Made by a program: the position numbers and the translations under genes. The notes below the pieces were generated by a model. It saw only the letters and a program-made list of their open reading frames with translations, made no database searches and was not told the origin of the DNA. Below are positions 3,469 through 49,095 of a stretch of DNA of 49,388 nt, piece after piece. Every line of letters starts with the position of its first letter. Positions within the stretch are counted from its first letter, which is position 1. Origin of the DNA: Candidatus Magnetominusculus sp. LBB02 (lineage in GTDB: Bacteria; Nitrospirota; Thermodesulfovibrionia; Thermodesulfovibrionales; Magnetobacteriaceae); the NCBI GenBank assembly GCA_022321325.1, contig JAKOEO010000021.1, forward strand, positions 1-49,388, given 5' to 3'.

Positions 3469-3572
3469 AATATGTCAGACCCCCTCTGCAAAACACTATG
3501 CTAACATATAGCGGCTGTTGGCGGCAAATCACTACACAAGCGCCCATGAGTGTCATTTAACTTTGGCGGCTA

Positions 3573-3601
3573 TTGCAAAAATTTATACATTACATTATAC
3601 T
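3573..3601 (+). promoter_or_regulatory. Sigma70-type promoter for the patatin gene
   Basis: TTGCAA (3573-3578), a 17-bp spacer, then TATACT (3596-3601). It lies about 55 bp upstream of the ATG and the AGGAGG ribosome site of the patatin gene, in the divergent gap after the hybrid kinase. Confidence 0.5.
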
Positions 3602-3655
3602 TATAGCTGGTTGTTAGCTGATTAGTTGTTTGCCAAAAAACAATCAGGAGGAATT

Positions 3656-4855
3656 ATGAAACGAAGAGCAGACCAGAGAAAACATCACAGAAGTAATACC
3701 CCACACGAGCGTATAGCACTTGCCTGTCAGGGCGGGGGTTCTCTTGGGGCTTACCACGTTGGCGCATATGAGGCCATGGCCGAGGATGGCTATCTGCCAG
3801 ATATAGTCTCCGGTATCTCCATAGGGGCATTTACTGCCGCTATAATTGCCGGTAACGACCCGGATGTACGGCTGCAGAAGCTGAATGAGTTTTGGGATTA
3901 TATCTCATGGCCTGAATTCGAGTATCTTTCTAATTGCCTCAAGCATTTTCCAGATATCTCTACTCAACTAAGAAAATCTCACAACACTATTAGCTCTGTG
4001 CAGGGATTTGTTTTTGGACAGCCTCACTTTTTTGTTCCACGCATTCCGCCGCCCCAGCTCGCACTATCAGGCACTACTGAGGCTACAAGCTGTTACGACA
4101 CTGATCCTTTAAGGGATACGCTGCTGAAATTTGTGGATTTTGACCGTATCAACGAAAATAAGACACGCCTAATCCTTGGGGCAACGAAGGTTAAGGATGG
4201 CACGCTGGTATTTTTTGACAGCGCCAGCGCTAAGATTACTCCTGAACATGTCATGGCAAGCGGTTCAATGCCTCCCGGTTTTCCAGGAGTACGCATAGAC
4301 GGCGATTTATACTGGGACGGCGGCTGCGTTTCAAATGCCCCGCTTGACGGGATACTGGAAGCAGAGCCTAAGAAAAGCACCCTTGCCTTTGTGGTAGATT
4401 TGTTTAATCCTAAAGGGAAAGAGCCGAAAAATATGGATGACGTTGCCATACGCCAAAAAGAAATCCTCTTCGCCAGCAGGACTTCAAGCCACATTCGCAG
4501 GATAATCAAAAACCATAATCTGTCGCACTCTCTTTCAGCAATTCTCAACGGCCTGTCCAAAAGTGCGGAGAGCAAATCATTGATAAAAGAACTGAGATTA
4601 CTTGCCAAAAGCCATGACATTGATTACGTTGCTGACCTTGACATTGTACACATTGTCTATGACGCACCGCCTTATGAGGTGCCTACTATGGACTGCGAGT
4701 TTTCTAAAACATCCATCGAAGACAGGTCTGAACATGGGTATGCCGATATGAAGGAGACGCTTATAGAGTGCCCGTGGCTTGCGGCGAAGGCTGCGCATGT
4801 TGGCTCAAGGGTATATAAGTGCGTGGGTGGACAGTGCCATGAGGTTGATGTCTGA
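3656..4855 (+). CDS. Patatin-like phospholipase with DUF3734-type C-terminus
   Basis: A predicted acyl hydrolase of 399 residues. The oxyanion-hole glycine loop (CQGGGSLGAY), the nucleophile elbow GISIG and the catalytic-Asp motif DGG in WDGGCVSNAP are all present, so the Ser-Asp dyad is intact. The C-terminal region resembles the DUF3734 extension common in bacterial patatins. No signal peptide or membrane span is seen. The track start at 3626 is too early: AGGAGG sits just before ATG 3656, which gives MKRRADQ. It appears monocistronic. The substrate is unknown; members of this group hydrolyse phospholipids or neutral lipids. Confidence 0.88.
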   Translation: MKRRADQRKHHRSNTPHERIALACQGGGSLGAYHVGAYEAMAEDGYLPDIVSGISIGAFTAAIIAGNDPDVRLQKLNEFWDYISWPEFEYLSNCLKHFPDISTQLRKSHNTISSVQGFVFGQPHFFVPRIPPPQLALSGTTEATSCYDTDPLRDTLLKFVDFDRINENKTRLILGATKVKDGTLVFFDSASAKITPEHVMASGSMPPGFPGVRIDGDLYWDGGCVSNAPLDGILEAEPKKSTLAFVVDLFNPKGKEPKNMDDVAIRQKEILFASRTSSHIRRIIKNHNLSHSLSAILNGLSKSAESKSLIKELRLLAKSHDIDYVADLDIVHIVYDAPPYEVPTMDCEFSKTSIEDRSEHGYADMKETLIECPWLAAKAAHVGSRVYKCVGGQCHEVDV

Positions 4856-4872
4856 ATAGTTGTACTAAGCAT

Positions 4873-4895
4873 CCCCCGCGGCAGGGCCACGGGGG
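4873..4895. terminator. GC-rich hairpin between convergent genes
   Basis: CCCCCG (4873-4878) pairs with CGGGGG (4890-4895) around an 11-nt loop, 18 bp after the patatin stop codon. There is no strong T-run on either side, so it is a weak intrinsic terminator at best. Its position suggests it ends transcription of the patatin gene and perhaps of the small minus-strand ORF. Confidence 0.4.
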
Positions 4896-4909
4896 GCTTG
4901 GAGTGTTTA

Positions 4910-5047
4910 TTAGTGGCCTACCATGTTTGTGCCGTCATAGCAGGTATAGCCAGTCATATTTCTCTTGGGAGATGTGGTTCCCTGAAAGCATGATATCAAT
5001 ACTGTTTGGCACGCTGATGACAATTTGTGCTTAATCTCCTGATTCAT
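4910..5047 (-). CDS. Possible small ORF, 45 residues, unknown
   Basis: Not in the ORF track. Reading the minus strand from ATG 5047 gives an uninterrupted 45-residue peptide beginning MNQEIKHK and ending DGTNMVGH, with three cysteines. No clear ribosome-binding site precedes it and I recognise no family. It fills most of the otherwise empty 330-bp gap between the patatin and ChrB genes. It could equally be chance. Confidence 0.25.
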   Translation of the reverse strand: MNQEIKHKLSSACQTVLISCFQGTTSPKRNMTGYTCYDGTNMVGH

Positions 5048-5147
5048 TACGTTGTCTATTATAATCCCATCTAATATGTATATCATTCATTATGACATTT
5101 ATTTGGATAATGTCTCATTTTCGGGCTACACTATACAACCAAAGCCC

Positions 5148-5192
5148 TTGACAAATATGTAACACATGTTCTAATATAGTTTCATGTTACAT
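5148..5192 (+). promoter_or_regulatory. Strong promoter with overlapping inverted-repeat operator
   Basis: TTGACA (5148-5153), an 18-bp spacer, then TAATAT (5172-5177). An 8-bp inverted repeat flanks the -10 box: ATGTAACA (5157-5164) and TGTTACAT (5185-5192). The predicted transcription start, about 7 bp after the -10 box, coincides with the ATG at 5184, so the mRNA would be leaderless. The geometry suggests a repressor that blocks RNA polymerase. ChrB-family proteins are reported as chromate-responsive regulators, so self-regulation is possible. Confidence 0.6.
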
Positions 5193-6149
5193 AGCAACAA
5201 ACACAGGTGGCTGCTATTCTTCTACAGTATTGCGGCTAAGCCTGTCAGCGGTCGGGTTAAGGTCTGGCGGCGGCTTGTTCAGGCCGGGGCGGTTCAGCTT
5301 AAAGACGCCGTGTATGTGCTGCCTTATACTGACGCGCACTTCGAGTTCTTCCAGTGGCTCTCATCAGAAGTCGTCTCTCTGGGCGGGGAGGCTATGTTTA
5401 TCAAGGCCGAAAAGATTGAAATGCTCGATGACGCCGCAATAATTAATCTGTTTAACCGGCACAGAAAGAAAGACTACGCCGCCCTTGAAAGACAGTTAAA
5501 TGACATTGAATCAAGAATTATGCCGCCTCTGAAGGACTCCAATATTAAAAAACTCGCTGACAGCTTCCACAAGTGTGTAAAAGAACTCGGCGAGATCAGA
5601 AAGATAGATTTCTTCTCAGACGAGGGAAAGAGGCTGTCAGCTAAAATAGACGACCTCGGAGGCAAGTTAAAAGGCATCACCAGCCTAAGCGCCCAAAGTC
5701 AGCCCGCCATCGAACAAAAGAGACGCGAGGACTATCAGGGCAAGACCTGGGTAACACGGCAGCGCCCCTTTGTGGACAGAATGGCCTCTTCCTGGCTGAT
5801 TAAGAGATTTATAGACAAGGCGGCGGCCTTTATACTAATCGCCGAGGGCGATATACTGCCCTCTGACGCGGCGGCGTTTGACATTGTGGGCGGGGAGTTT
5901 TCGCATGTGGGCACATTGTGTACGTTTGAGGTCATGGTGAAGGCATTTAGTATTAAGGACAGGGCGGTTAAGAAGATTGCCGAAATAGTCCACGAGATAG
6001 ATATACGCGGCGATGAGTATAGAAATCCAGAATCGCCGGGAGTTGAAGAAATTCTGACGGGCATTCAGATGACGGCAGAGACTGGCACAGAGGCACTTGA
6101 AAAGGGGGCGGCAATCTTTGAGCTGCTCTATTTATCAAAGACTGGCTAA
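5184..6149 (+). CDS. chrB: ChrB-family chromate resistance/sensor protein
   Basis: A 321-residue protein with the ChrB N-terminal region (FFYSIAAKPVSGRVKVWRRL and following, about 10-90), a charged helical middle (110-175), and a C-terminal ChrB domain starting TWVTRQRPFVDRMASSWLI (about 190-310), which ends with HEIDIRGDEYRNPE. ChrB proteins accompany the chromate exporter ChrA and regulate or support chromate resistance. No chrA is in the window; an MFS gene follows instead. There is no ribosome site before ATG 5184 and the promoter places the transcript start at that codon. The symbol is by family; chromate specificity is inferred. Confidence 0.78.
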   Translation: MLHSNKHRWLLFFYSIAAKPVSGRVKVWRRLVQAGAVQLKDAVYVLPYTDAHFEFFQWLSSEVVSLGGEAMFIKAEKIEMLDDAAIINLFNRHRKKDYAALERQLNDIESRIMPPLKDSNIKKLADSFHKCVKELGEIRKIDFFSDEGKRLSAKIDDLGGKLKGITSLSAQSQPAIEQKRREDYQGKTWVTRQRPFVDRMASSWLIKRFIDKAAAFILIAEGDILPSDAAAFDIVGGEFSHVGTLCTFEVMVKAFSIKDRAVKKIAEIVHEIDIRGDEYRNPESPGVEEILTGIQMTAETGTEALEKGAAIFELLYLSKTG

Positions 6150-25959: not shown

Positions 25960-26754
25960 TTAACTAATATCTGTGATATCTCCATTTTGTTGAATTATAA
26001 ATTTATCCATAAGCACTATTTTATCATGAGTATCTTTATCAGATTCCTTGTTGATATCAACCTCAATGCCGCCCATGTAAATGATGTCTATCTCATCTTT
26101 TTGCGCAAGTTTTTTCAGTTGCTGCTTTAGCCATGGAATCTGATCATTATATAAGTTTATTGTAACCTCTAATAAATCATGGCCAAGTGGCTTCGGTTTT
26201 ATATTATGAATGGAAATTATTTTTTTTATATACTTGGTAAGCGCCCTAAGGTCGTAATCCGAGGGCATTTTTATCCCTTTAAGTATTTGATCATAACAAG
26301 ACTTTATAGCTCCACACGCCGGGGTAGGACTGTCGTGTCCATGCCTAACAAATGAACCGAACTCTTTTGTATTGCCGTCATATCCTATATGCGATAAGTT
26401 CAAGATCAAGAGCTTATCGTCTTCTTTTACCGGCACATGATGGGCAGCCGGCAGGAGACTTTCATAAGTCTTTATTTTAGGTAAAAATATCCCCCCAAAA
26501 AGACGCATATTGTAGAATTTTTCTATTTTAATTAAAGTATCATTATCAATAATGGCAGGATAAAACCTTCTCATCTCATACTTGATATTATCTATAACTG
26601 TAGTGCATTGCTCATCAAGGCAGTTTATTACGACCACAACCACATTAACCCCAAGAAATACACTATATCTTTCCATTATTCCATTGATAACTTCACACAA
26701 CTGCGGTATATCTATTGCCTTTGCAAGAAAATTATCAGCCGATACTTGTCCCAT
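25960..26754 (-). CDS. Unknown protein, possibly degenerate carbonic-anhydrase-like
   Basis: 264 residues. VVVVVINCLDEQ (Cys45, Asp47) followed about 95 residues later by RHGHDSPTPACGAI (His140, Cys147) loosely matches the Cys-Asp / His-Cys zinc-site layout of beta-type carbonic anhydrases and putative relatives (INCMDGR ... GHxxC). The key Arg of the Asp-Arg pair is missing and the His-Cys spacing is longer, so activity is doubtful. No signal peptide. It sits upstream of the STAS gene and near two calcium exchangers transcribed the other way. Family assignment is inference only. Confidence 0.5.
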   Translation of the reverse strand: MGQVSADNFLAKAIDIPQLCEVINGIMERYSVFLGVNVVVVVINCLDEQCTTVIDNIKYEMRRFYPAIIDNDTLIKIEKFYNMRLFGGIFLPKIKTYESLLPAAHHVPVKEDDKLLILNLSHIGYDGNTKEFGSFVRHGHDSPTPACGAIKSCYDQILKGIKMPSDYDLRALTKYIKKIISIHNIKPKPLGHDLLEVTINLYNDQIPWLKQQLKKLAQKDEIDIIYMGGIEVDINKESDKDTHDKIVLMDKFIIQQNGDITDIS

Positions 26755-27398: not shown

Positions 27399-28385
27399 AT
27401 GGGTAACAGCGTTGTCACTGTGTTTGCCATGCTTACCGTGGGTATCGCCCTTTTGGTATTCGGGGCGGACAAGTTTACATATTGCGCAGAACGTATTGGT
27501 AAAACCCTTAAACTGCCGGGCTTTGTCATTGGCGCTGTAATAATCTCGATTGGTACGTGCTTGCCCGAGTTGATTGCATCTATTTTTGCCGTTTTAAAGG
27601 GATCTACGACGATTGTTGCCGGTTCTGTAGTTGGATCAAACGTTACAAATACCTTTTTAGTGCTGGGAATAGCTTTTTTATTTTTCAAAGGCGAACACAT
27701 AAAAGTTGAGCTTATAAACATAGACATACCATTTTTCCTTACGGCGACTGCACTTTTTTCTTTCATGACCTACCGTGGTCAATATAGGGCTATGGACGGG
27801 ATACTTTCTTTGATTGGAGTCTCTATCTACATATGGTCGGTGTTTTCGAGAAAACCAAGGTCTGAGGATGAAGCCGTCCCGGAGGATGGCGGAGCAGGTG
27901 AGGGCGAGGTAGTCCCCGCAACGCCGTTCACATACATTCTGCTGGTCATCAGCTCTGTAATGCTTTATTTTGGAGGCGAATGGACTGTAGATAATATTAA
28001 TGAGATTGCTAAAATATATCATCTGAACGAAGGGGTTATAGCCGGTACAGCGGTTGCCGTTGCATCCTCTTTACCCGAGCTTATGATAGCAATAAAGTTT
28101 GCCAGAAGGGGCAAGCTCGACATTGCACTGGGTAATGTCGTCGGTTCAGGGATCATTAACTTTTTCTTAGTAATTGGAGTGGCCTCTCTGTTTAGTTACT
28201 TTACGCCAAACCCTGGTGTGCTATTAGTTGCCGAGGATACTATAAATAAGGGATTGCCGGTGATGCTTTTTGGTTCAATAATTTTTACCTTTGTCGTTAT
28301 TGACAAGAAGCCGTCAAAGTATGAGGGCGCGATGTTTTTGCTAATATATGTATTTTATGTCGGGAGAATGCTTAAATGGTTGTAG
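27399..28385 (+). CDS. Ca2+/cation antiporter, YrbG-type (CaCA family)
   Basis: 328 residues with ten or so membrane spans and the two inverted alpha-repeats that define the family: GTCLPELIASIFAVLKGSTTIVAGSVVGSNVTNT (quoted only as landmarks at its ends, GTCLPEL and GSVVGSN) and ASSLPELMIAI with GNVVGSG in the second half. The paired Glu residues bind Ca2+ or another divalent cation in exchange for Na+ or H+. First gene of a long co-directional run and overlaps the next exchanger gene by 10 bp. Confidence 0.88.
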   Translation: MGNSVVTVFAMLTVGIALLVFGADKFTYCAERIGKTLKLPGFVIGAVIISIGTCLPELIASIFAVLKGSTTIVAGSVVGSNVTNTFLVLGIAFLFFKGEHIKVELINIDIPFFLTATALFSFMTYRGQYRAMDGILSLIGVSIYIWSVFSRKPRSEDEAVPEDGGAGEGEVVPATPFTYILLVISSVMLYFGGEWTVDNINEIAKIYHLNEGVIAGTAVAVASSLPELMIAIKFARRGKLDIALGNVVGSGIINFFLVIGVASLFSYFTPNPGVLLVAEDTINKGLPVMLFGSIIFTFVVIDKKPSKYEGAMFLLIYVFYVGRMLKWL

Positions 28386-29491
28386 ACTTGAAAAAACTGG
28401 GAAAATATGAAATTGGCATATTAGACTATTTTCTGCTATTTATTCCAATTGCCGTAGTGTTGGAGCTTAGACATGCCAGCGGTACGCTAATCTTTGCCGC
28501 ATCTGCGATTTCCATAATTCCTTTGGCGGCTATTATGGGCAATGCCACCGAGCACCTGTCCGAGAAACTTGGCTCCGGCATTGGCGGATTTCTCAATGCT
28601 ACATTTGGCAATGCAGCTGAACTGATTATTGCAATAGTTGCGCTTAAAGCTGGATTTTATGAAGTCGTAAAGGCATCAGTAACAGGTTCTATTATAGGCA
28701 ATATACTGCTTGTCCTCGGGCTTAGTTTCGTAGCCGGTGGTACCAAGCAAAAAATAGTGCACTTCAACGCCACGGCAGCCGGCTTGAACTCTTCGATGCT
28801 GGTACTCTGCTCTTTCAGCCTTGTAGTGCCGACCCTTATTGATACACTTTTAGGGCAACATACGTTAACAAAAGTCGGCGTAGAGAGTTTAAACCTTAAA
28901 TTAAGCCTTGCAATTGCCATAGTGCTCTTTGTTACATATGTGCTTAGCCTGGTGTTTTCGCTAAAAAGCCACAAACACTTGTATGGCGTAGACGATGAGA
29001 ATGCACACGGCAATGAATCGGGACATAGTTGGAGCAGCGCTAAGGCCCTCTCTGTGCTTGTAGCCGCTACGGTCGGAATCAGTTTTATGAGTGAATTTCT
29101 GGTAAAATCTCTGGAGTCGGCAACGAAATCATTTGGCATGAACGAGGTATTTGTCGGCGTAATAGTTGTTGCGTTGGTTGGCAATGCCGCAGAGCACAGT
29201 ACAGCGATTCTTATGGCACTCAAGAAAAAGATGGATGTGTCAGTCTCGATAGCCATTGGCTCAAGTTCTCAGGTCGCCATGTTTTTAGCCCCTGTTCTCA
29301 TATTCATAAGTTACTTTGTAGGACCATTGCCTATGAATCTGACGTTTACTCCGCTTGAGACCATCTCCATATTATTTTCTGCCTTTTTAGTCAATTTTAT
29401 CACCTCTGACGGGCAGTCTCATTGGATGGAAGGCGTACAGCTTTTGGCGTTGTATGTAATTTTAGGTATGGCTTATTTCTTTATATATTGA
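28376..29491 (+). CDS. Ca2+/H+ antiporter, CAX type
   Basis: 371 residues, about 11 membrane spans. The two CAX repeat motifs are clear: GNATEHL and FGNAAELIIAI in the first half, and GNAAEHSTAI with IAIGSSSQVA in the second. This protein would expel Ca2+ (or Mn2+) using the proton gradient. Two distinct exchangers in tandem suggests calcium or divalent cation handling is the theme of this locus. The P-type ATPase follows after 35 bp. Confidence 0.9.
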   Translation: MVVDLKKLGKYEIGILDYFLLFIPIAVVLELRHASGTLIFAASAISIIPLAAIMGNATEHLSEKLGSGIGGFLNATFGNAAELIIAIVALKAGFYEVVKASVTGSIIGNILLVLGLSFVAGGTKQKIVHFNATAAGLNSSMLVLCSFSLVVPTLIDTLLGQHTLTKVGVESLNLKLSLAIAIVLFVTYVLSLVFSLKSHKHLYGVDDENAHGNESGHSWSSAKALSVLVAATVGISFMSEFLVKSLESATKSFGMNEVFVGVIVVALVGNAAEHSTAILMALKKKMDVSVSIAIGSSSQVAMFLAPVLIFISYFVGPLPMNLTFTPLETISILFSAFLVNFITSDGQSHWMEGVQLLALYVILGMAYFFIY

Positions 29492-29526
29492 GTCTGATAC
29501 TAACTTTTTTAAAATAGTGAGGTTAA

Positions 29527-31863
29527 ATGGAAACAGTACCCAAGATTAGCGAGGACTATGAGCAGAACTCGCCCGAGGCAAATGCCGGGGGCGCTTGCGG
29601 CGCTTTGACTCATCAGAGTTCAGCGCCTCCAACCAATGCCGCTTGTCCGGCCAATGTCATTAATGTGGAAAAAAGCTGGGAAATCCAAAGCAATGACTCC
29701 TCCGCTGTTATAGGGATTAAAAGCGCTTTTCTTAAGCTGCGTCTTGCTTGTACTGTTAAACATGCCATAAAAGGACGTTTTCGTATATGTATCTCGCTCT
29801 TAGCGTCATATAAGGATTTGAGCATAACGCTTTGCAACTATTTAAAGACACAAAGCGCAGTGACCGATGTGCATGTTAACCATTACTGTGGGAGTTTTAC
29901 CATCTATTACGATAAGGACAAGCCGGTAAAGGATAAAATCATGGCCGCGATTTCTTCGATGACTGTCTCTGACATAGTGGACTTGAAGACGCAGCTAGTT
30001 CAGCTAAAAAAGGATGACAAAGAAATCTCTCTGTCTTATTTTAGGTGGGCGTCTGTTGCAATGGGGTTGAGCCTCTCTCTTGGCGGCATTCCTGTGCTTG
30101 CCCTGGCTATAGTCTATCCGATGCTGATGTATATTGCAGTGCCTGTTTATAGACGAACCTACAAGTGTATTAAAAATGAACACAGGCTGAATGTTGATTT
30201 CCTCGATGCCGCCGCTCTGACTGTAGGTATGCTTACCGGAGATGTTATGAACGCCTCCGCTATGGTATGGCTGATTCACCTTGGTGATTACATAAGAGAT
30301 CTTACAGAGGCAACCTCGCATAAAACGATAAGAAAGTTATTGGATTTTCAAGAGAACTACGCATGGGTTGTAAGAGGGGATGTTGAGCAGAAGGTTAGGG
30401 TTAAAGATATTGAAGTTGGCGAGGTAGTTTCCTTAAACGTGGGAAACCTTATTCCGGTAGACGGCCAAATAATCGAGGGTGAAATCATCGTTGACCAGCA
30501 GGTGTTAACCGGCGAGTCGTTTCCTGTTCACAAAGAGGTTGGCGATACTGTGCTTGCCGCAACAGTAATAAAAGACGGCAAGGCGTATGTAAGGGTTGCC
30601 AAAACCGGAGATAATACAAAGGTGGCTCAGGTGGTTAAAATGGTAGAGGATGCCCCGATTTATGAAACTAAAATACAAAACCACGCTGAAAAGTTTGCTG
30701 ATAGAATCGTAATGCCCTCATTAGTTACCACATCTTTAATCTTCGCCAGTACGTTAAATCTTCACCATCTCGCGGCTCTTCTTACCGTGGATTTTGGCAC
30801 AGGCGTAAGGGTCTCGGCGCCGACGGCGGTATTGTCCTGCATGATTTCAGCCACATCGCACGGGATACTAATAAAGGGCGGCAGCTATCTGGAAAAACTA
30901 TACAAATCCGACACTATTATATTCGATAAAACGGGGACGCTTACAACCGGAGAGATTAAAGTGGAGGACGTAATTGGTTTTAACGGCTATATGCAGGATG
31001 AGATAATCTCATATGCCGCTGCCGCCGAGCTGCAGATGACACATCCAATAGCTGAGGCGGTGGTAAGGTATGCGGAAGATAAACAAATAGAGCTTAAAAT
31101 ACGAGATGCCGTCCAGTACTGTGTCGGACGCGGCGTAGATGCCTCGATAAACGGCAAAAATGTGCTTGTCGGCAGTTTGAGGCTGCTTAATGAAAACTCA
31201 ATCTCAATAGACGATGAGATTATAACGGTTACAGATACTCTCATAAGCGACGGCAAAGCCGCTCTATATATTTCCATAGATGGAAATCTTGCCGGTATCA
31301 TTTCTTTCAGGGACCAGATACGTAAAGAGGCCAAAGAGATGATAGATGAGCTTCACAGAGTTGGCGTTACTAATGTCATAATGCTTACTGGGGATGTGAA
31401 AAAGGTGGCCTATCCGGTGGCAAAGATGCTGGGTATTGACCGATGTATTGCCGAGGTGCTGCCAGAGCAAAAGGCCGAGGTTGTGATAGATTTAAAGAGC
31501 AAAGGCCACGTAGTGGCTTTCGTTGGCGATGGGATAAATGACTCAGTAGCGCTTTCTTATGCTGATATCGGGTTTTCCGTAAAAGGAGGTGCAGATATCA
31601 CAAAAGAAACGGCAGGGGTAATTTTGCTTGATGACAATCTGCATAAAATTCCTAAGGCGTTTGAGATAAGCAAGGAAACAATAAAGCTGATCAAGGAAAA
31701 TTACGCGATAACAGGAGGGCTTAACGTAGTGGCTTATGCCCTTGCGGCATTCAATTTGATTTCTCCTGTTCTAACAACCCTTATCAGTAATGGCTCGGCA
31801 ATCATAGCCTGTATTAATGGCATGAAACCTATAATAAGAATGAAACTCAATGGTCATAAATAA
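29527..31863 (+). CDS. P1B-like metal-transporting P-type ATPase with HMA-like N-domain (CtpC-like)
   Basis: 778 residues. A Cys-poor N-terminal HMA2-like domain (about 75-155, KHAIKGRFRICIS then NHYCGSFTIYYD) lacks CxxC. The catalytic set is complete: TGES (about 328), DKTGTLT with phospho-Asp (about 466), HP (505) and GDGIND (667). The metal-selecting motif of the sixth core span is APT, not CPC or SPC, like Mn-related CtpC-type pumps rather than Cu or Zn pumps. It probably exports a divalent metal. The first 60 residues are low-complexity. Cargo is not proved. It heads the HMA-like/PilT-like part of the operon. Confidence 0.88.
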   Translation: METVPKISEDYEQNSPEANAGGACGALTHQSSAPPTNAACPANVINVEKSWEIQSNDSSAVIGIKSAFLKLRLACTVKHAIKGRFRICISLLASYKDLSITLCNYLKTQSAVTDVHVNHYCGSFTIYYDKDKPVKDKIMAAISSMTVSDIVDLKTQLVQLKKDDKEISLSYFRWASVAMGLSLSLGGIPVLALAIVYPMLMYIAVPVYRRTYKCIKNEHRLNVDFLDAAALTVGMLTGDVMNASAMVWLIHLGDYIRDLTEATSHKTIRKLLDFQENYAWVVRGDVEQKVRVKDIEVGEVVSLNVGNLIPVDGQIIEGEIIVDQQVLTGESFPVHKEVGDTVLAATVIKDGKAYVRVAKTGDNTKVAQVVKMVEDAPIYETKIQNHAEKFADRIVMPSLVTTSLIFASTLNLHHLAALLTVDFGTGVRVSAPTAVLSCMISATSHGILIKGGSYLEKLYKSDTIIFDKTGTLTTGEIKVEDVIGFNGYMQDEIISYAAAAELQMTHPIAEAVVRYAEDKQIELKIRDAVQYCVGRGVDASINGKNVLVGSLRLLNENSISIDDEIITVTDTLISDGKAALYISIDGNLAGIISFRDQIRKEAKEMIDELHRVGVTNVIMLTGDVKKVAYPVAKMLGIDRCIAEVLPEQKAEVVIDLKSKGHVVAFVGDGINDSVALSYADIGFSVKGGADITKETAGVILLDDNLHKIPKAFEISKETIKLIKENYAITGGLNVVAYALAAFNLISPVLTTLISNGSAIIACINGMKPIIRMKLNGHK

Positions 31864-31932
31864 CACTTGAGTTTTTATGTGCGAAAAAGTTAAAATATTG
31901 TATCAAAGCAGTTCAATAAACAGGAGGTCACT

Positions 31933-32166
31933 ATGGAAACCTTGATATCTGGGGTAATTGGCGGGGCGGTAGTTTTTGTTGCAGGCAAATCTGATTTTCT
32001 GAGGAACTCACTGAAGGGAGTTATAAAGATGGGTTATTCGGTTACGGACGCACTAACCACTGGCGGAGGGGAGACGCTGGAGTCAATTAAAGACATTATT
32101 GCTGAGAGCAAGTCAGAGTACGACGCTGAGCAGGCCGCCAAGGCTGAGGCAATGGTTAAGGCGTAA
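31933..32166 (+). CDS. Small single-span membrane protein, copy 1 (PacL-like)
   Basis: 77 residues: an N-terminal glycine-rich span (ISGVIGGAVVFVAG), an amphipathic stretch, and an acidic tail with ESIKDIIAESKSEYD. AGGAGG precedes the ATG. It is paralogous to the next gene. Layout and position beside a CtpC-like ATPase recall mycobacterial PacL/DUF1490 proteins, which scaffold and supply metal to P-type pumps, although the terminal His/Asp metal motif of PacL1 is absent. DUF5132-type proteins are another possible label. Role inferred. Confidence 0.7.
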   Translation: METLISGVIGGAVVFVAGKSDFLRNSLKGVIKMGYSVTDALTTGGGETLESIKDIIAESKSEYDAEQAAKAEAMVKA

Positions 32167-32167
32167 T

Positions 32168-32404
32168 ATGGGATATATAATTGCCGGCATAGTGGGGGGC
32201 CTTGTTGTAGTGTTGATTACAAAAGTGCTCCCCAATAAAAGTTTTATTAAAAGTCTGATGAAAGTGATGTATTCTTTAAAAGACTCATTGTTCGCGTCTG
32301 TCTGCCATTCATTTGAGGAATTTAAAGATATAGCGGCAGAGAGCAAGGCCGAATATGAGTTCGAGAAAATGAAAGAAGCACAGGCAAAGGCCGGGAAGAA
32401 ATGA
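32168..32404 (+). CDS. Small single-span membrane protein, copy 2 (PacL-like)
   Basis: 78 residues from ATG 32168, one base after the previous stop; the track start at 32099 is inside the upstream gene. It has an N-terminal span (YIIAGIVGGLVVVLITKVL) and the tail FKDIAAESKAEYEFEK, matching the tail of copy 1 (KDI-AESK-EY). The glycine-zipper-like span suggests oligomerisation. Overlaps the next gene by 4 bp. The tandem pair may form a hetero-oligomeric scaffold for the P-type ATPase. Confidence 0.7.
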   Translation: MGYIIAGIVGGLVVVLITKVLPNKSFIKSLMKVMYSLKDSLFASVCHSFEEFKDIAAESKAEYEFEKMKEAQAKAGKK

Positions 32405-33003
32405 CCGGCGCATATAAAATAGAAGTGGCTCATTATGTAAGCGGGCGGCTCAGGCTGAGGGTTGAGACAGCTATGGACATGAGGGTGTTCTTTATCTTTT
32501 TACACTCTGCCATTGGAAGAGTTCAGGATATAAAAAAAGCGCAGTATAGCCGTTTTGCCGCTTCAGTAACCCTTTATTTTGATAATCGCTTCATTGACAA
32601 AGGCGTTATAATGGCAAGGCTTAGCGAGCAGATAGATTTTATCATGTCGCTTCCGAATTTCTCCGGTGCATATGAGGAGATACTGAATGCTTTGTGTTGT
32701 GGCGAAAGCGATGACATAGAAATAACAATCAAAGATGATGAGGTCACGGTAAACTATGTTTACGGGCAAATCATAAAAACCTTTTCACGGTCAGGCGTTT
32801 TCAAGAAAGACACTGTTATTTCGGCAACAACCATGTCTGCAGGGCTTTTTACGCTTCTTTTGGCCCCGGCGCTTCCGACCCCTGCGTGGTTGGTTCTTTT
32901 ATTTTTTGGCTACAGCTCTCTTAAACAATATGAGTCCACCAAAGTAATTGAGCAGCTCCTAGTGCAGTCACTGAAACACGAAAAACAGGACGCAAATGAA
33001 TAA
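32401..33003 (+). CDS. HMA-like membrane protein of unknown function
   Basis: 200 residues. The N-terminal region (YKIEVAHYVSGRLRLRVE, later VTLYFDNRFIDKG) has the fold pattern of the Cys-less HMA2-like domain also seen in the P-type ATPase and the next gene. The C-terminal part is membrane-inserted (ATTMSAGLFTLLLAPALPTPAWLVLLFFGY). No metal-binding CxxC. It may be a regulatory or assembly subunit. Overlaps neighbours by 4 and 8 bp, so it is firmly within the operon. Confidence 0.65.
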   Translation: MTGAYKIEVAHYVSGRLRLRVETAMDMRVFFIFLHSAIGRVQDIKKAQYSRFAASVTLYFDNRFIDKGVIMARLSEQIDFIMSLPNFSGAYEEILNALCCGESDDIEITIKDDEVTVNYVYGQIIKTFSRSGVFKKDTVISATTMSAGLFTLLLAPALPTPAWLVLLFFGYSSLKQYESTKVIEQLLVQSLKHEKQDANE

Positions 33004-33622
33004 CATCATTGCTAAGACCGAGACTGCCGCTGTGTTTGATTACGCTTCCATGCCTGATGACCACCAAACCGCGGCGGCTCTGGAGATGTATATACCTTAT
33101 GAGGTTAGGCACGCCATTGCAGGGCGCATCAGGGTGGTGTCTGAGGCTTTCATGGTAAATAAGTACCTGGGCATGATGGTTAGCAATATCATTGGCGGCT
33201 TGCCAGGCGTTACCGAAATATCGTTAAACAGTTGCTGCGGCAGTATGACTATATACTATGATGAGAATGTGATTGACAAGACTGAAATCCTAAGAAACAT
33301 GAGCGCTATTACTATGAATGTGGTGGTTACAAGCAATACTTTTAATATATTGTTTGAGAAATCTATGTTCACGGAGGTTAAGGGCAACGCTGGCGCAAAC
33401 TGGTTTTATGAGATTGCCGGAGTTCTTTTAGCGGCTTTTGGAGTGGTTATGGTGATTCTTCCGGGGATTCCTGGTATACCAATTTTACTGCTTGCTGCTT
33501 ATTTTTTAGCAAAAGGCGCCGGGCCTGTATATAAAAGACTAATTAGAAACAATTATTTTGGTAAGTATTTACAAAAACCTGAGCAGCTTGCAATCACGGA
33601 TGCAGACAAACAACAGCAATGA
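32996..33622 (+). CDS. HMA-like domain fused to DUF454/YbaN-like membrane domain
   Basis: 208 residues. Residues about 30-110 form an HMA2-like domain (VRHAIAGRIRVVSE, then LNSCCGSMTIYYDEN), very close in pattern to the N-domain of the P-type ATPase. Residues about 135-195 match the DUF454/YbaN shape: two spans around LPGIPGIPILLLAAYFLAKG and then the conserved tail KRLIRNNYFGKYL. Both parts appear intact. The fusion ties a metal-transporter-type domain to an inner-membrane family of unknown function. Overlaps the PilT-like gene by 4 bp. Confidence 0.7.
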   Translation: MNNIIAKTETAAVFDYASMPDDHQTAAALEMYIPYEVRHAIAGRIRVVSEAFMVNKYLGMMVSNIIGGLPGVTEISLNSCCGSMTIYYDENVIDKTEILRNMSAITMNVVVTSNTFNILFEKSMFTEVKGNAGANWFYEIAGVLLAAFGVVMVILPGIPGIPILLLAAYFLAKGAGPVYKRLIRNNYFGKYLQKPEQLAITDADKQQQ

Positions 33623-34707
33623 ATATGAAAGGGCTATTGTTTTTTGAATCCCTTTGCTGTCTTTTAAATGAAAAGCGTGGGTCTGTACTCTATTTGACCG
33701 CAAATGAAACGCCGTATATCAGAGTAGGAAAGACCCTGTCAAAGATTGATAATCTGACGCCCGTTAGTGAAAAGCTCATCGTTTCGCTGATTAACTTACT
33801 CGTTAACCGCTCAACTGTAAATATAAAAAAACCCTTTATGGAAGCACAATTTAACTATGACTCTAAAGATTCAGGCAAATTCAGAGTGCTGATATCACGC
33901 AGCAGTGATGGTTACATGTTGGCAGTAAGCCCTGTTCATGATGACATACCAGAGATGGACTCTTTGAATCTCCCACATAGAATGAAACAACTCATACATG
34001 TCCAGTCAGGTCTGCTCCTTATTATTGGGAAACGCAACTCTGGCAAAAGTTCTACAGTAGCGTCGCTGGTAGATTTCATTAATAAAAATTATAGTAAAAG
34101 GATTATGGTTATGGAGAACTCTCTTACGTATCTTCATAAAGATTGGCTCTCAACGATAAAGCAATCATTTTTCAGAGCATCGGACATTTTAAACCTGTCA
34201 AATGCTGAATTCGATAAAACCATAGGGGACTCATCGGTGGTTGCCTTAGATGGATTTCCTATGTATGAAACCATCAGACTATCGCTTGTGGCCGCAAGGA
34301 AAGGCGTTTTGGTAATAGCCTCGTCAGATATAAACGGAGGTGTTTCTGAGGCCCTTCGGCTGATGATAGAATGTTTTGACGAAAATGATAGAAACGAAGC
34401 AAAAAAAACGCTATCCGCTACGTTGAAGGCACTGATATGGCAAACGCTGTTGCCTAAAAATGATGGTACAGGGGTAATGCCAATTTTTGAAATGCTTATT
34501 AACGACCCCATAATATCCTCCCAGATATATAATGAGAGGTTTCATTTGATCAGGCCGACAATGGCGGCGGGGTCTTCAAGGGGTATGGTAACTATATCTC
34601 AGGCATTAGCTGGGGCCGGTGATTTTTTAAACAAAGATGCCATGAGAAAATTCAGAGATGATACTTATTCATATTATGTAAATTCGGTTAAAGAGGCTTA
34701 TTATTAA
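33619..34707 (+). CDS. Divergent PilT-like ATPase, copy A
   Basis: 362 residues. A PilT/GspE-type N-domain (to about 120) precedes the Walker A GKRNSGKSS (about 137-145) within a HVQSGLLLIIG context typical of PilT. The Asp-box position reads VMENSLTYLH instead of VTIEDPIEFVH and the His box is absent, so catalysis may be weak. The C-terminal helical domain (LKALIWQTLLP, ISQALAGAGDF) still follows PilT. No pilin, PilC or secretin genes are nearby. It is coupled to the HMA-like/DUF454 gene upstream (4-bp overlap) and lies 15 bp before copy B. Confidence 0.75.
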   Translation: MNMKGLLFFESLCCLLNEKRGSVLYLTANETPYIRVGKTLSKIDNLTPVSEKLIVSLINLLVNRSTVNIKKPFMEAQFNYDSKDSGKFRVLISRSSDGYMLAVSPVHDDIPEMDSLNLPHRMKQLIHVQSGLLLIIGKRNSGKSSTVASLVDFINKNYSKRIMVMENSLTYLHKDWLSTIKQSFFRASDILNLSNAEFDKTIGDSSVVALDGFPMYETIRLSLVAARKGVLVIASSDINGGVSEALRLMIECFDENDRNEAKKTLSATLKALIWQTLLPKNDGTGVMPIFEMLINDPIISSQIYNERFHLIRPTMAAGSSRGMVTISQALAGAGDFLNKDAMRKFRDDTYSYYVNSVKEAYY

Positions 34708-34722
34708 ATGGAGGTGTACTAA

Positions 34723-35862
34723 GTGGATGACTTAAAGAAAAACGATAAGGCGGAGACAGACGAATATATCTATAAGGTGGAATCGCTGACAAGGCCAAAG
34801 AAGGACTTGCCGGAGATAGTCAATTACTTAATGGCAGCACGAGATATGAGCGCCTCTGATATTTACTTTTCTGTTGATGAGTGTCCAGTGCTAAAGCGCC
34901 ATGGAAAGTTTTATAAACTATTGGAACACCCTTTTTACCGGCAAGATGAGCTTAAGCGTATGCTATATGAAATATTGGATAAGAGCCAAATAATGAGATT
35001 TGAAAAGCAGTTGGATATGGAACTGCTCTACGTCAGCGATGATACAGGCAGCGTCAGAATTAATCTTTATCACGCACAGGATGGCATAGGAGCGGCGTGC
35101 AGGATAATTCCACGCAACATTCCGCAATTACAGGAATTGGGACCAAAGGAATCACTTGAAAAAATTGCTGATTTAGAAGAAGGATTCGTTCTGATAACAG
35201 GCGAGGCAAGGTCAGGTAAATCCACTACCCTTGCTGCCATAATTGAGCACATCAATATAAACAAGAAGAAAATCATTGTCACTATAGAGGATATAATTGA
35301 ATTTCAACATTCCAACCAGTCTTCTGTGGTAGACCAGCGCCAACTAGGGGTTCACACCTTGAGTTATGCCAATGCTATTAATGCCGCAATGCGAAGTAAG
35401 GCAGACGTTATAATCCTTTCAGATATTGAGGGCAAAGACGAGCTAAATCTTGCTATGAATGCCGCCGACGCCGGTATTTTAGTCATAGCGGTTATGAGAA
35501 CATTTGGCGGTACGGGCGAGGCGATATACAGGATGCTTAATTTTTACAATGAGAGTGACCAAAAATTTGCAAGATATCAACTCTCGCGGGTTTTGAGAAC
35601 CTTTATATGGCAGCATCTGCTGCCTCTTAAAGACTACGAAGGAACGGTTCCGGCAATGGAAATTATGCATAATACCAAAAAAATATCGGAATTGATACGA
35701 ACAAATCAATTGGATAAGATTTACAAAGAGGTTGGAAAGAACCGCGCATTAGGAATGCAAACGATGGAACAGTCCTTTGAATTCCTTCAAACCATACACG
35801 AAATTGAGAGTAATGTATCACTTGCCTTCAAATATGGAAAGTTTCTTCTTGCATTATTATAA
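34723..35862 (+). CDS. PilT-like ATPase, copy B
   Basis: 379 residues, GTG start behind GGAGG. It is better preserved than copy A: N-domain with SASDIYFSVDECPVLKRHG; Walker A GEARSGKSTT (about 160); Asp box VTIEDIIEFQH; QRQLGVHTLSYANAINAAMR; Walker-B-like DVIILSD. The His box (normally TLHT) reads VMRT. PilT proteins are hexameric motors that pull apart type IV pili, but no pilus genes are present. With copy A this may form a mixed motor like PilT/PilU, working on the metal-transport membrane complex encoded upstream. That role is inference. Confidence 0.8.
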   Translation: MDDLKKNDKAETDEYIYKVESLTRPKKDLPEIVNYLMAARDMSASDIYFSVDECPVLKRHGKFYKLLEHPFYRQDELKRMLYEILDKSQIMRFEKQLDMELLYVSDDTGSVRINLYHAQDGIGAACRIIPRNIPQLQELGPKESLEKIADLEEGFVLITGEARSGKSTTLAAIIEHININKKKIIVTIEDIIEFQHSNQSSVVDQRQLGVHTLSYANAINAAMRSKADVIILSDIEGKDELNLAMNAADAGILVIAVMRTFGGTGEAIYRMLNFYNESDQKFARYQLSRVLRTFIWQHLLPLKDYEGTVPAMEIMHNTKKISELIRTNQLDKIYKEVGKNRALGMQTMEQSFEFLQTIHEIESNVSLAFKYGKFLLALL

Positions 35863-36003: not shown

Positions 36004-37278
36004 ATGAGTATTAGTTATCCGGGTATTTCAAAGAAACTTGAAGCGTTAATGCCGCTCATCTCTGTTATTTTTCTTTTATTGGGCATGTCGGCGGCAAGGG
36101 CATCCCATACTCTAAGTACTTCCCTTGCTTCATGCCTTTCATGGCTTATAGATGTGTACAAGTATGCGTCGCCGCTTGTAATTTTTATCGTCCTCGCTTG
36201 TTCGCTTTCTCATATTTTCAAAGAGAGCAAGGGGAAGTTTGCAGTTCGGGCGATTTTCTTTTTCTTGAAGGCCAGGACTCTGGCTTGCATATGGGCCATA
36301 GTTTTCACTTGTTTCTGTCTGAGATTACCGTTTCTTCCGCGCACTTTTAAAGGTTCTTTCAGTGAGTTCAAAGACTCGGCCAATACGTTGATGATATCTT
36401 TGGCGCAGAATACTTTTTCATATGCGATACTATTGGCTGTTATAGTTTCTTTATTGTCAAACAAATATACTTCCATTTATAAAATTATGAACGCTCCTTT
36501 TACATTGATTGAGAAGTTTGGCAATATACTTTTCCCATTAATACCAGTTTTCATGTTCATGGTCGGAGTTTACATCTATTCCCTTCCAAGTGAGGTGAAT
36601 AAGTTAATGTCAGAAGAAGGTACAAATACCTTGATTTTCAGTGGCTTTAAGGTATTTGGCCTGTCGCTTTCAGTTGATAATCAATGGGGATTATTTGGCG
36701 TTTATATTGTTATTTCGATGCTGGTCGGGTTAGCCACTTTGCTATGGCATGTGGGATTTGTTTTTTTTGTAAGGATATTTGTAAAAGGGTTTTCCATCAG
36801 ACACTATTTTTCCAAATACTGGATACATATGTTCCCTTTTTTGTTTGCCACGGCCTCAGAGTCGCTGTCAATGCCTCTTAATCTTGTGTTAGTTAATAAA
36901 TATTTTCCGGAAATAAACAAGATGATAAAAGACTTTATCGTGTCTATTGGAAGTTATATCGGCATTAACGGAACTACGATATGTGTTTTTGTAATGGCTG
37001 CTTTCGTAGCAAAATTAGTCGGGGTCGAGCTTTCTTTTATGGAGCTTTTGATAAGCATCCCCATCGTGATTATTATAGGGCTTGGCGTGCCTGGAATTCC
37101 CGGTGAGCTGCTGCTTTTTGGCGCTCCCCTTGCAGCCTTTTACAACCTGCATGGTCCGGTCTCTATCGTATTCATAACAATATTTGTAGGATTACAGTTA
37201 GGGCTGCCGGATTCTTTTCGTACTGGAGTGAATTCTACAGACAATAGCCTTGTCTGTATCTATCTAGACTCGAAATAA
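36004..37278 (+). CDS. DAACS-family (glutamate/dicarboxylate-type) symporter
   Basis: 424 residues, about eight spans plus re-entrant loops. The second half carries degenerate DAACS landmarks: FATASESLSMP (serine-rich loop), GINGTTICVFVMAAFVA (NMDGT-like), GVPGIPGELL, and DSFRTGVNSTDNSLVC matching the substrate-binding D-x-RT-x-N region. The NMDGT motif reads GINGT, so ion or substrate selectivity may differ. It is 141 bp after the PilT-like gene on the same strand, so possibly but not certainly in the same transcript. Confidence 0.75.
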   Translation: MSISYPGISKKLEALMPLISVIFLLLGMSAARASHTLSTSLASCLSWLIDVYKYASPLVIFIVLACSLSHIFKESKGKFAVRAIFFFLKARTLACIWAIVFTCFCLRLPFLPRTFKGSFSEFKDSANTLMISLAQNTFSYAILLAVIVSLLSNKYTSIYKIMNAPFTLIEKFGNILFPLIPVFMFMVGVYIYSLPSEVNKLMSEEGTNTLIFSGFKVFGLSLSVDNQWGLFGVYIVISMLVGLATLLWHVGFVFFVRIFVKGFSIRHYFSKYWIHMFPFLFATASESLSMPLNLVLVNKYFPEINKMIKDFIVSIGSYIGINGTTICVFVMAAFVAKLVGVELSFMELLISIPIVIIIGLGVPGIPGELLLFGAPLAAFYNLHGPVSIVFITIFVGLQLGLPDSFRTGVNSTDNSLVCIYLDSK

Positions 37279-47806: not shown

Positions 47807-48118
47807 ATGGTCGACAAGCAAAGGAAGAGATTTTCGTCTGAGGAGAAGATAAGGATATTGAGAGAGCACTTGTTAGAGAAAGTACCGGTATCTGACGTAT
47901 GTGACAAGCATGAAGTTCAGCCGACGTTATTTTACCGATGGCAGAAGGAGTTTTTTGAGAATGGGGCGATGGTATTTGATCGTGGCAATGACAAGCCAAG
48001 TAAGAAGTTGGAGAGGGAGAATGAGGCGTTGAAGGCGAAGCTCTCGCACAAGGATGGGGTGATAGCGGAGATAATGGAGTCGCATGTGGCGTTAAAAAAA
48101 AGTCTTGGGGAGATTTGA
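47807..48118 (+). CDS. IS3-family transposase OrfA
   Basis: 103 residues: helix-turn-helix RRFSSEEKIRILREHLLEKVPVSDVCDKHEVQPTLFYRWQK-type N-half (landmarks FSSEEKIRILREH and LFYRWQKEF) and a leucine-zipper-like C-half (LERENEALKAKL). It binds the element ends. A GGAGGAAG site precedes the ATG. The end overlaps OrfB. Confidence 0.85.
   Translation: MVDKQRKRFSSEEKIRILREHLLEKVPVSDVCDKHEVQPTLFYRWQKEFFENGAMVFDRGNDKPSKKLERENEALKAKLSHKDGVIAEIMESHVALKKSLGEI
48094..48102 (+). promoter_or_regulatory. A8G slippery site for OrfA-OrfB frameshift
   Basis: AAAAAAAAG within OrfA; a -1 shift here moves into the OrfB frame (KKSWGDLTGV), which is open through the overlap. This is the usual IS3 way to make the OrfAB transposase. 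The conclusion is from frame arithmetic; efficiency is unknown. Confidence 0.5.
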
Positions 48119-49095
48119 CAGGGGTGTGGACAGAACCAGACATACGAGATAGTGTGGTTGACTATGTGCATTACTGGTCAGAGAGGGCGTCCTTTCCTGC
48201 CAATCGTTTAGTTGCATGGATAGGTATAGGACGGGGGAAATACTACCAGTGGTGCTGGAGGTATGGGAAAGTCAACGAACACAACGCTTGGATACCTCGC
48301 GACTTTTGGCTTGAGGAGTGGGAAAAGGAGGCGATAATTGCCTATTTTAAGGAACATCCACATGATGGCTACCGGCGGCTGACGTACATGATGATGGATG
48401 CTGATATTGTAGCGGTAAGTCCATCAAGCGTTTATCGTGTGCTTTTTGCGGCAGGGCTATTGAGGCGTTGGAATAGCAAGCCATCACAGAAGGGCACAGG
48501 ATTTGTACAACCGTTAAAACCGCATGAACACTGGCATGTGGATATATCATACATCAATATTTGTGGGACATTTTACTATCTTTGCAGCCAGTTAGACGGA
48601 TGCAGCCGATATATTGTGAACTGGGATATTCGTGAGAAGATGACAGAGGTTGATGTAGAGATAATAATCTGTAGGGCACAGGAGAAATATCCTGACGCCA
48701 AGCCACGGATAATTTCTGACAACGGGCCACAATTCATTGCTAAGGACTTCAAGGAGTTCATAAGGGTCTGCGGGATGACGCACGTAAGAACATCGCCATA
48801 TTACCCACAGAGCAATGGGAAACTTGAGCGGTGGCACCAGTCGCTAAAGGGTGAGTGCATTCGACCTGGCACACCTCTGTCGTTGGATGATGCCCGCCGG
48901 TTAGTAACTGGATACGTTGAGTATTACAACAATGTGCGCCTTCACAGTGCCCTTGGATATGTAACTCCAAAGGATAGGCTGGAGGGGCGAGAAATGGAGA
49001 TTTTTATGTTACGCAATCAGAAGTTGGAAGCGGCTCGTGAAATACGCCGCCGTCATAAAATTTTTGACAAAGTAATTTCTGAGATGGTAAACTGA
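48115..49095 (+). CDS. IS3-family transposase OrfB (DDE integrase core)
   Basis: 326 residues. An N-terminal HTH_21-like region (YFKEHPHDGYRRLTYMM) precedes the rve core with the DDE triad: HWHVDISYI, IISDNGPQF and SNGKLERWHQSLKGE, plus the usual YNNVRLHSALGYVTP tail. The track start is TTG at 48115; expression probably depends on frameshift from OrfA. It appears intact. Confidence 0.88.
   Translation: MTGVWTEPDIRDSVVDYVHYWSERASFPANRLVAWIGIGRGKYYQWCWRYGKVNEHNAWIPRDFWLEEWEKEAIIAYFKEHPHDGYRRLTYMMMDADIVAVSPSSVYRVLFAAGLLRRWNSKPSQKGTGFVQPLKPHEHWHVDISYINICGTFYYLCSQLDGCSRYIVNWDIREKMTEVDVEIIICRAQEKYPDAKPRIISDNGPQFIAKDFKEFIRVCGMTHVRTSPYYPQSNGKLERWHQSLKGECIRPGTPLSLDDARRLVTGYVEYYNNVRLHSALGYVTPKDRLEGREMEIFMLRNQKLEAAREIRRRHKIFDKVISEMVN

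Follow-up and report, generated by a model that had tools for sequence, protein, structure and literature searches.

PacL proteins are small proteins that cluster P-type ATPases in mycobacteria by means of a GXXG motif (PMC9374683, PMC13043812). In the PacL/CtpC effluxosome of Mycobacterium tuberculosis, for which the clustering of pumps was shown in those studies, the small protein (DUF1490, with DUF6110 relatives) has a transmembrane (TM) segment, a GxxG motif and a Glu/Ala-rich tail, and is encoded together with a P-type ATPase. The same traits recur in a nine-gene operon at positions 27399-35862 of a 49,388-nucleotide stretch of DNA from Candidatus Magnetominusculus sp. LBB02 (GenBank contig JAKOEO010000021.1). 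The window, as this whole stretch is called below, forms contig C56 of a draft genome of 3.47 Mb (labelled G000). In contrast to the PacL system, the operon also encodes two ion exchangers (NCX and CAX) and a pair of proteins related to the pilus proteins PilT and PilU (PilT1 and PilT2); the description of PacL includes neither PilT-like nor CAX/NCX genes.

HMA_2-DUF5132 P-type ATPase modules resemble the operon in more of their genes. In Nitrospirota (families f29 and f32) and in the cyanobacterium Gloeothece verrucosa PCC 7822, these modules contain, as here, an HMA_2-headed ATPase with the same motifs in TM4 and TM6, HMA_2 and DUF454 proteins, and small proteins, there of the DUF5132 type. 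The module of genome G210 comprises a CAX that is 46% identical to that of the cassette, an NCX-like exchanger, a DUF5132 protein, an HMA_2-ATPase and a DUF454 protein, but no PilT. None of the modules inspected has PilT-like genes, whereas in the operon described here CAX, NCX and the PilT pair are fixed and the small proteins are divergent. Within the family Magnetobacteriaceae, too, an HMA_2 pump module without PilT is present in G012, where the small neighbour has no significant Pfam match. The core (HMA_2 ATPase, DUF5132-type, HMA_2 and DUF454 proteins, sometimes CAX/NCX) is an ordinary module that is also found without PilT, and the new part is the PilT pair. Of the claim, made in an earlier sequence-only reading of this DNA, that the operon was undescribed, the PilT pair is what stands; the core occurs elsewhere. 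No literature tying PilT to HMA/DUF454 pumps was found, although the DUF5132 and CoBaHMA literature was not fully checked.

Gene layout and conservation of the operon

All nine genes are on the + strand, in the order NCX, CAX, ATPase, small1, small2, HMA_2, HMA_2-DUF454, PilT1 and PilT2. NCX (27399-28385) and CAX (28376-29491), which have an overlap of 10 bp, sit directly upstream of the P-type ATPase gene (29527-31863) and end 35 bp before it. The six genes 3' of the ATPase run head to tail from 31933 to 35862: small1 (31933-32166), small2 (32168-32404), the HMA_2 gene (32401-33003), the HMA_2-DUF454 gene (32996-33622), PilT1 (33619-34707) and PilT2 (34723-35862), with spacers of +69, +1, -4, -8, -4 and +15 bp from the end of the ATPase onward. 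The sequence-only reading had recognised the ATPase and the tightly packed run behind it, with gaps of 1-15 bp or overlaps of 4-8 bp. It counted seven genes in that run, where the open reading frame listing gives six, and it overlooked NCX and CAX, so that the core of its operon was real but its extent was too small. The gaps flanking the ATPase hold promoter-like consensus matches, at or in them. Since such matches are only moderately commoner than in shuffled sequence (36 vs 23.8 +/- 5.2 expected), a single transcript for the nine genes is considered likely and nothing firmer. An Rfam search found no riboswitch that could name the ion, and inspection by eye found nothing clearly conserved in the upstream DNA past the ribosome-binding sites.

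PilT1 orthologues are present in five further genomes, with 56-70% identity. The nine-gene order is identical in all six cassette genomes, which belong to two genera of one magnetotactic family (Ca. Magnetobacteriaceae), and NCX and CAX are part of every copy. The overlaps of -4, -8 and -4 bp are kept in 6/6 genomes and the +1 and +15 to +18 spacers in 5/6; the exception is G017, which has a 160-bp gap before PilT2 and an extra HMA_2 gene. This gene (108 amino acids; L057:9645-9971, - strand) lies between small1 and small2 and was seen in G017 only. Because six genomes share the nine-gene order and most of the overlaps are base-exact in them, the operon is beyond chance.

With the PilT1 profile (E <= 1e-55), only four genomes among 396 Nitrospirota (2/170 genera) were retrieved, orthologues being absent from the other ~390. 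Of the 20 genomes of the family, six have PilT1, and precisely these six have the cassette-type ATPase (about 1650 bits). This shared presence and absence, together with the gene order in six genomes, bears out the earlier view that, genetically, the two PilT-like genes are part of the transport operon rather than of a pilus locus. Beyond Nitrospirota, the search consisted of plasmids and one close-relative scan of 84,980 species genomes. The scan gave two loci, both in Nitrospirae metagenome-assembled genomes (nDJH8bin13 and nDJH8bin6) of the Ca. Magnetominusculus clade of Ca. Magnetobacteriaceae (PMC9376291), and PilT1, searched against plasmids, matched nothing beyond ordinary PilT (about 28%). 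More than one genome has the arrangement; its recurrence in distant phyla, which had been suggested as a check on whether it forms a system, was seen neither in the scan and the plasmids nor in the Nitrospirota profile search. In G017 an argD-argF block borders directly on the cassette. The congeners G009 and G015 have this block without the cassette, and the cassette therefore appears to have been gained or lost as a block. A role in magnetosomes was considered and rejected, since magnetochrome domains occur in 18/20 family genomes and the cassette in only six, which makes the cassette dispensable for magnetosomes.

The PilT1 and PilT2 proteins

ATPases of the secretion superfamily are the motors of pili, secretion and archaella. 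PilT1 and PilT2 share with PilT and PilU of the type IV pilus the fold family over nearly their full length, as well as the tandem arrangement, but they differ in order, the PilU-like gene being the first here. Both match TIGR01420 below its cut-off of 319.1 bits (PilT1, 174.7 bits; PilT2, 276.5 bits), and the best solved relatives are PilU 9n32 for PilT1 (138.7 bits) and PilT 2ewv for PilT2 (186.6 bits). Unlike the pilus proteins, they have no pilus genes next to them: none was found beside any of the six cassette copies or in the window, as the sequence-only reading had observed for this locus.

The source genome has its own PilT/PilU on another contig (C88) and several PilB-like genes elsewhere. 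In a tree of 69 sequences from the family and the order, PilT1 and PilT2 form two separate clades, each with full support, on stems of 2.8 and 3.6 changes per site, and they lie apart from PilT, from PilU and from a third PilT group, which is linked to recA. An identity of the pair with the PilT/PilU of the same genome is ruled out by the locus and the tree, and PilT1 and PilT2, judged from their sequences, can safely be regarded as distinct from the local PilT/PilU, with which the sequence-only reading had allowed that they might group. The third PilT paralogue, which is likewise apart from PilT/PilU, lies beside recA and a recX-like gene, with alaS nearby, in several families of the order (L062-L065 in G024, G046, G030 and G037, with similar matches in L030-L053), with no pilus gene in sight.

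Residues of the twelve PilT1 and PilT2 sequences (six of each) were counted against 51 comparators. The GKS of Walker A, including its lysine, is kept in 12/12. The Walker B glutamate, which is catalytic in the PilT family, is present in 51/51 comparators but is replaced by Asp in 6/6 PilT2 and by Gly in 6/6 PilT1. The Arg-Asp that follows this glutamate is lost in both proteins, and so is the histidine of the His box in 12/12 sequences (Arg in PilT2; Gly, Asp or another residue in PilT1). At 36 of the 70 near-invariant columns the residue is retained in every PilT2 sequence, and at 21 in every PilT1 sequence. The C terminus of PilT2 is strongly conserved, and PilT1 also lacks most of the near-invariant arginines. 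Since the Walker B glutamate and the His-box histidine are lost in all six genomes, it is unlikely that PilT1 and PilT2 are ordinary motors, as they had been called in the sequence-only reading; PilT1 is probably a pseudo-ATPase. The median ratio of nonsynonymous to synonymous substitution rates (dN/dS) is 0.09 for PilT2 and 0.19 for PilT1, and 0.09-0.22 for the other genes of the operon. As both PilT genes are under purifying selection, their altered active sites are being maintained and are not in decay.

The transport genes, their probable cargo and the neighbouring genes

By profile, the ATPase is of the heavy-metal type (TIGR01525, 485 bits). Its TM4 has DFGTGVR in place of CPC/SPC and its TM6 has LISNGSAI in 6/6 genomes; the patterns D[YF]GTG[IV]R and [SN]NGSAI are common to its relatives, the DUF5132-linked ATPases of the Nitrospirota families f29/f32 and Gloeothece. 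CAX is a Ca2+/H+ exchanger that passes the TIGR00378 cut-off (378 vs 211 bits), and NCX is a calcium/sodium-type antiporter of the CaCA superfamily (PF01699, 180 bits). A second HMA_2 locus of the source genome (G000:C44:33000-43000, L060, at 1310-5891) encodes a PMR1/SERCA-like P-type ATPase fused to HMA_2 (TIGR01522, 596 bits, under the equivalog cut-off), as well as two HMA_2 proteins and one protein that clearly matches DUF5132 (40.9 bits). From these sequences Ca2+ or Mn2+ is more likely as the cargo than a thiophilic metal, because the operon has two calcium-type exchangers, because there is no cysteine motif at TM4 of the pump and no CxxC in the HMA_2 domains, and because the second HMA_2/DUF5132 locus fuses HMA_2 to a PMR1/SERCA-like ATPase. 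The metal-transport complex of the sequence-only reading, if taken as a heavy-metal (thiophilic) system, is therefore unlikely.

Three proteins of the operon had been said to share a Cys-less HMA2-like domain. PF19991 indeed matches the ATPase (33.8 bits) and the 208-residue HMA_2-DUF454 membrane protein (42.1 bits; PF04304, 46.7 bits) above its cut-off of 30, and the 200-residue HMA_2 protein just below it (27.2 bits, E 4e-6). The term Cys-less is not literal, for the HMA_2 domains of the ATPase and of the DUF454-type protein have an invariant C-G-S, and what is missing is the CxxC motif. The HMA_2 protein has a hydrophobic segment at its C terminus. In its AlphaFold model, the predicted local distance difference test (pLDDT) is about 75-89 for the domain and 63.7 for the whole chain, and the elements are E5-13, E16-23, H27-39, E46-50, E55-59 and H67-83. 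Foldseek matched it to the HMA chaperones 2qif and 8rnz (TMt 0.66-0.69, with E only 0.02-0.06). The model points to an HMA-type fold that has one extra strand at the N terminus, before the others. An HMA_2 domain without CxxC recalls the CoBaHMA/calcyanin domain of cyanobacteria. With the calcyanin and intracellular Ca carbonate of these organisms there may be a kinship in the HMA-type domain, alongside the common Ca2+ theme; calcyanin itself was not identified at the cassette, although no search was aimed at it.

The small1 (77 amino acids) and small2 (78 amino acids) proteins are paralogues (hhalign probability 98.6%), and their hhalign probabilities to DUF5132 proteins are 92.7% and 69.7%, respectively. 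The DUF5132 profile gives small1 14.6 bits against a cut-off of 25, and 9/12 members are weak matches (best E 0.0013). Small1 is a probable membrane protein, and small2, which is kept in 6/6 genomes, has one TM helix predicted from hydropathy. G7-x-x-G10-G11 is invariant near the N terminus, and the tail is Glu/Ala-rich, of the AESK(A/S)EYE type. In none of the twelve small proteins was there a match to DUF1490 (E up to 10) or the C-terminal metal-binding motif DLHDHDH. From their sequences, small1 and small2 are probably divergent DUF5132 relatives. They are PacL-like in layout but are not PacL, since they have neither the DUF1490 match nor the metal-binding C terminus; the pump also differs from the PacL/CtpC system, with DFGTG and no CPC.

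Outside the operon, a gene of the Na+:dicarboxylate symporter family (SDF; 36004-37278, + strand; PF00375, 79 bits) accompanies the cassette as a satellite. It is downstream here and in G002, and upstream and divergent in G006, G007 and G017; thus it is found in 5/6 cassette genomes, and in one other (G004) of the 20. An LCIB-type (theta) carbonic anhydrase (25960-26754, - strand; PF18599, 41.5 bits) is an occasional neighbour that directly adjoins PilT2 in G007 (L058:877-1737). It was rejected as a fixed partner, as it is present in 13/20 family genomes irrespective of the cassette and mostly on other contigs. Transposase open reading frames at 48115-49095 of the window and at L060:6773-7753 on contig C44 have the same start and are apparently copies of one insertion sequence.

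Possible function of the operon

A proposed function of the operon, which we hold tentatively and at a little under an even chance, can be described as follows. The nine genes would encode a membrane ion-transport platform in which PilT/PilU-derived proteins were recruited as a nucleotide-responsive ring or scaffold. The HMA_2-type P-type ATPase, the Ca2+/H+ exchanger and the Ca2+/Na+-type exchanger would move the ion, probably a hard divalent cation (Ca2+ or, for instance, Mn2+), and the two small GxxG membrane proteins and the two HMA_2 membrane proteins may cluster and regulate the pumps. The PilT/PilU-derived pair would have lost the work of a pilus retraction motor. PilT2 probably still binds ATP, with slow or no hydrolysis, and a mixed ring or scaffold of PilT1 and PilT2 on the cytoplasmic side may contact the pumps and gate or organise the platform in response to nucleotide. 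The HMA_2-DUF454 protein is a candidate docking partner for the pair, because its gene overlaps into PilT1. The more specific proposition, that the pair is off pilus work, has lost hydrolysis and forms a ring that binds nucleotide and gates or organises a pump-and-exchanger platform for Ca2+/Mn2+, which would be the first case of the pilus-retraction ATPase family in ion transport, is doubtful.

Several points weigh against this proposal. The ion assignment rests on family names, NCX is just under the TIGR00367 cut-off (174.4 vs 179.65 bits), and the match of the small proteins to DUF5132 falls short of the curated threshold. The placement of PilT1 and PilT2 in the tree rests on very long branches, which were flagged by the tree program, and the structure model of PilT1 is poor (pLDDT 51.5) and unusable. 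The exchange of Glu for Asp in Walker B of PilT2 may leave some hydrolysis. An action on the membrane complex rests on gene order, and operon partners need not touch. The link of the PilT-like proteins to the transport complex, which the sequence-only reading had drawn, is nevertheless favoured.

That reading regarded the two proteins as active motors, which would hydrolyse ATP and assemble, cluster or disassemble the pump complex. The intact GKS core of Walker A in both proteins, the conservative nature of the Glu-to-Asp change and the strong conservation of PilT2 (dN/dS about 0.09) are consistent with it, but the loss of the Walker B glutamate, its Arg-Asp neighbours and the His-box histidine from both proteins in 6/6 genomes, and of most near-invariant arginines from PilT1, makes it improbable. 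The same Walker B and His-box losses in all copies count against PilT1 and PilT2 being accessory retraction ATPases or regulators of the type IV pilus of the genome, which might, for example, tie pilus activity to ion status. The two are true PilT-family homologues, PilT2 keeps the ELIR and GMQT motifs near its C terminus, and PilT/PilU and several PilB-like genes are available elsewhere in the genome; however, PilT/PilU sequences turned up in family genomes whether or not these have the cassette, PilT1 is found only with the transport genes, and no copy has a pilus gene beside it. An accessory pilus role thus seems improbable to us as well.

The cassette could also handle Ca and bicarbonate for a Ca-rich compartment inside the cell, be it amorphous CaCO3 or a vacuole, into which it would load Ca2+ while removing H+. 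CAX and NCX in the operon would suit such a role, and the HMA-superfamily domains recall the cyanobacterial calcyanin. The LCIB-type carbonic anhydrase adjoins the cassette in the window and in G007, but its presence in the family does not depend on the cassette, and CAX and NCX could simply export Ca2+. Some magnetotactic bacteria do form membrane-bound Ca carbonate, but these reports are from Pseudomonadota (PMC11773610), and no report from Nitrospirota was found; overall, this explanation is quite unlikely. Least of all do we expect an ordinary module for metal efflux or homeostasis that acquired two PilT paralogues, now decaying and without function. The core does exist without PilT in other Nitrospirota and in cyanobacteria, and PilT1 is the more diverged of the two; yet both genes are intact in six genomes, under purifying selection and with conserved overlaps, and are therefore maintained, which makes decay very unlikely.

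If the platform proposal is true, a conserved, catalytically altered PilT/PilU pair fixed in an ion-transport operon would extend the family to a new job. As the lineage is magnetotactic, the cassette may also be relevant to how cells with mineral organelles handle ions, though most members of the family live without it. It would moreover offer a tractable way to study how P-type ATPases are organised into platforms in bacteria; so far, such organisation has been shown mainly for the mycobacterial PacL.

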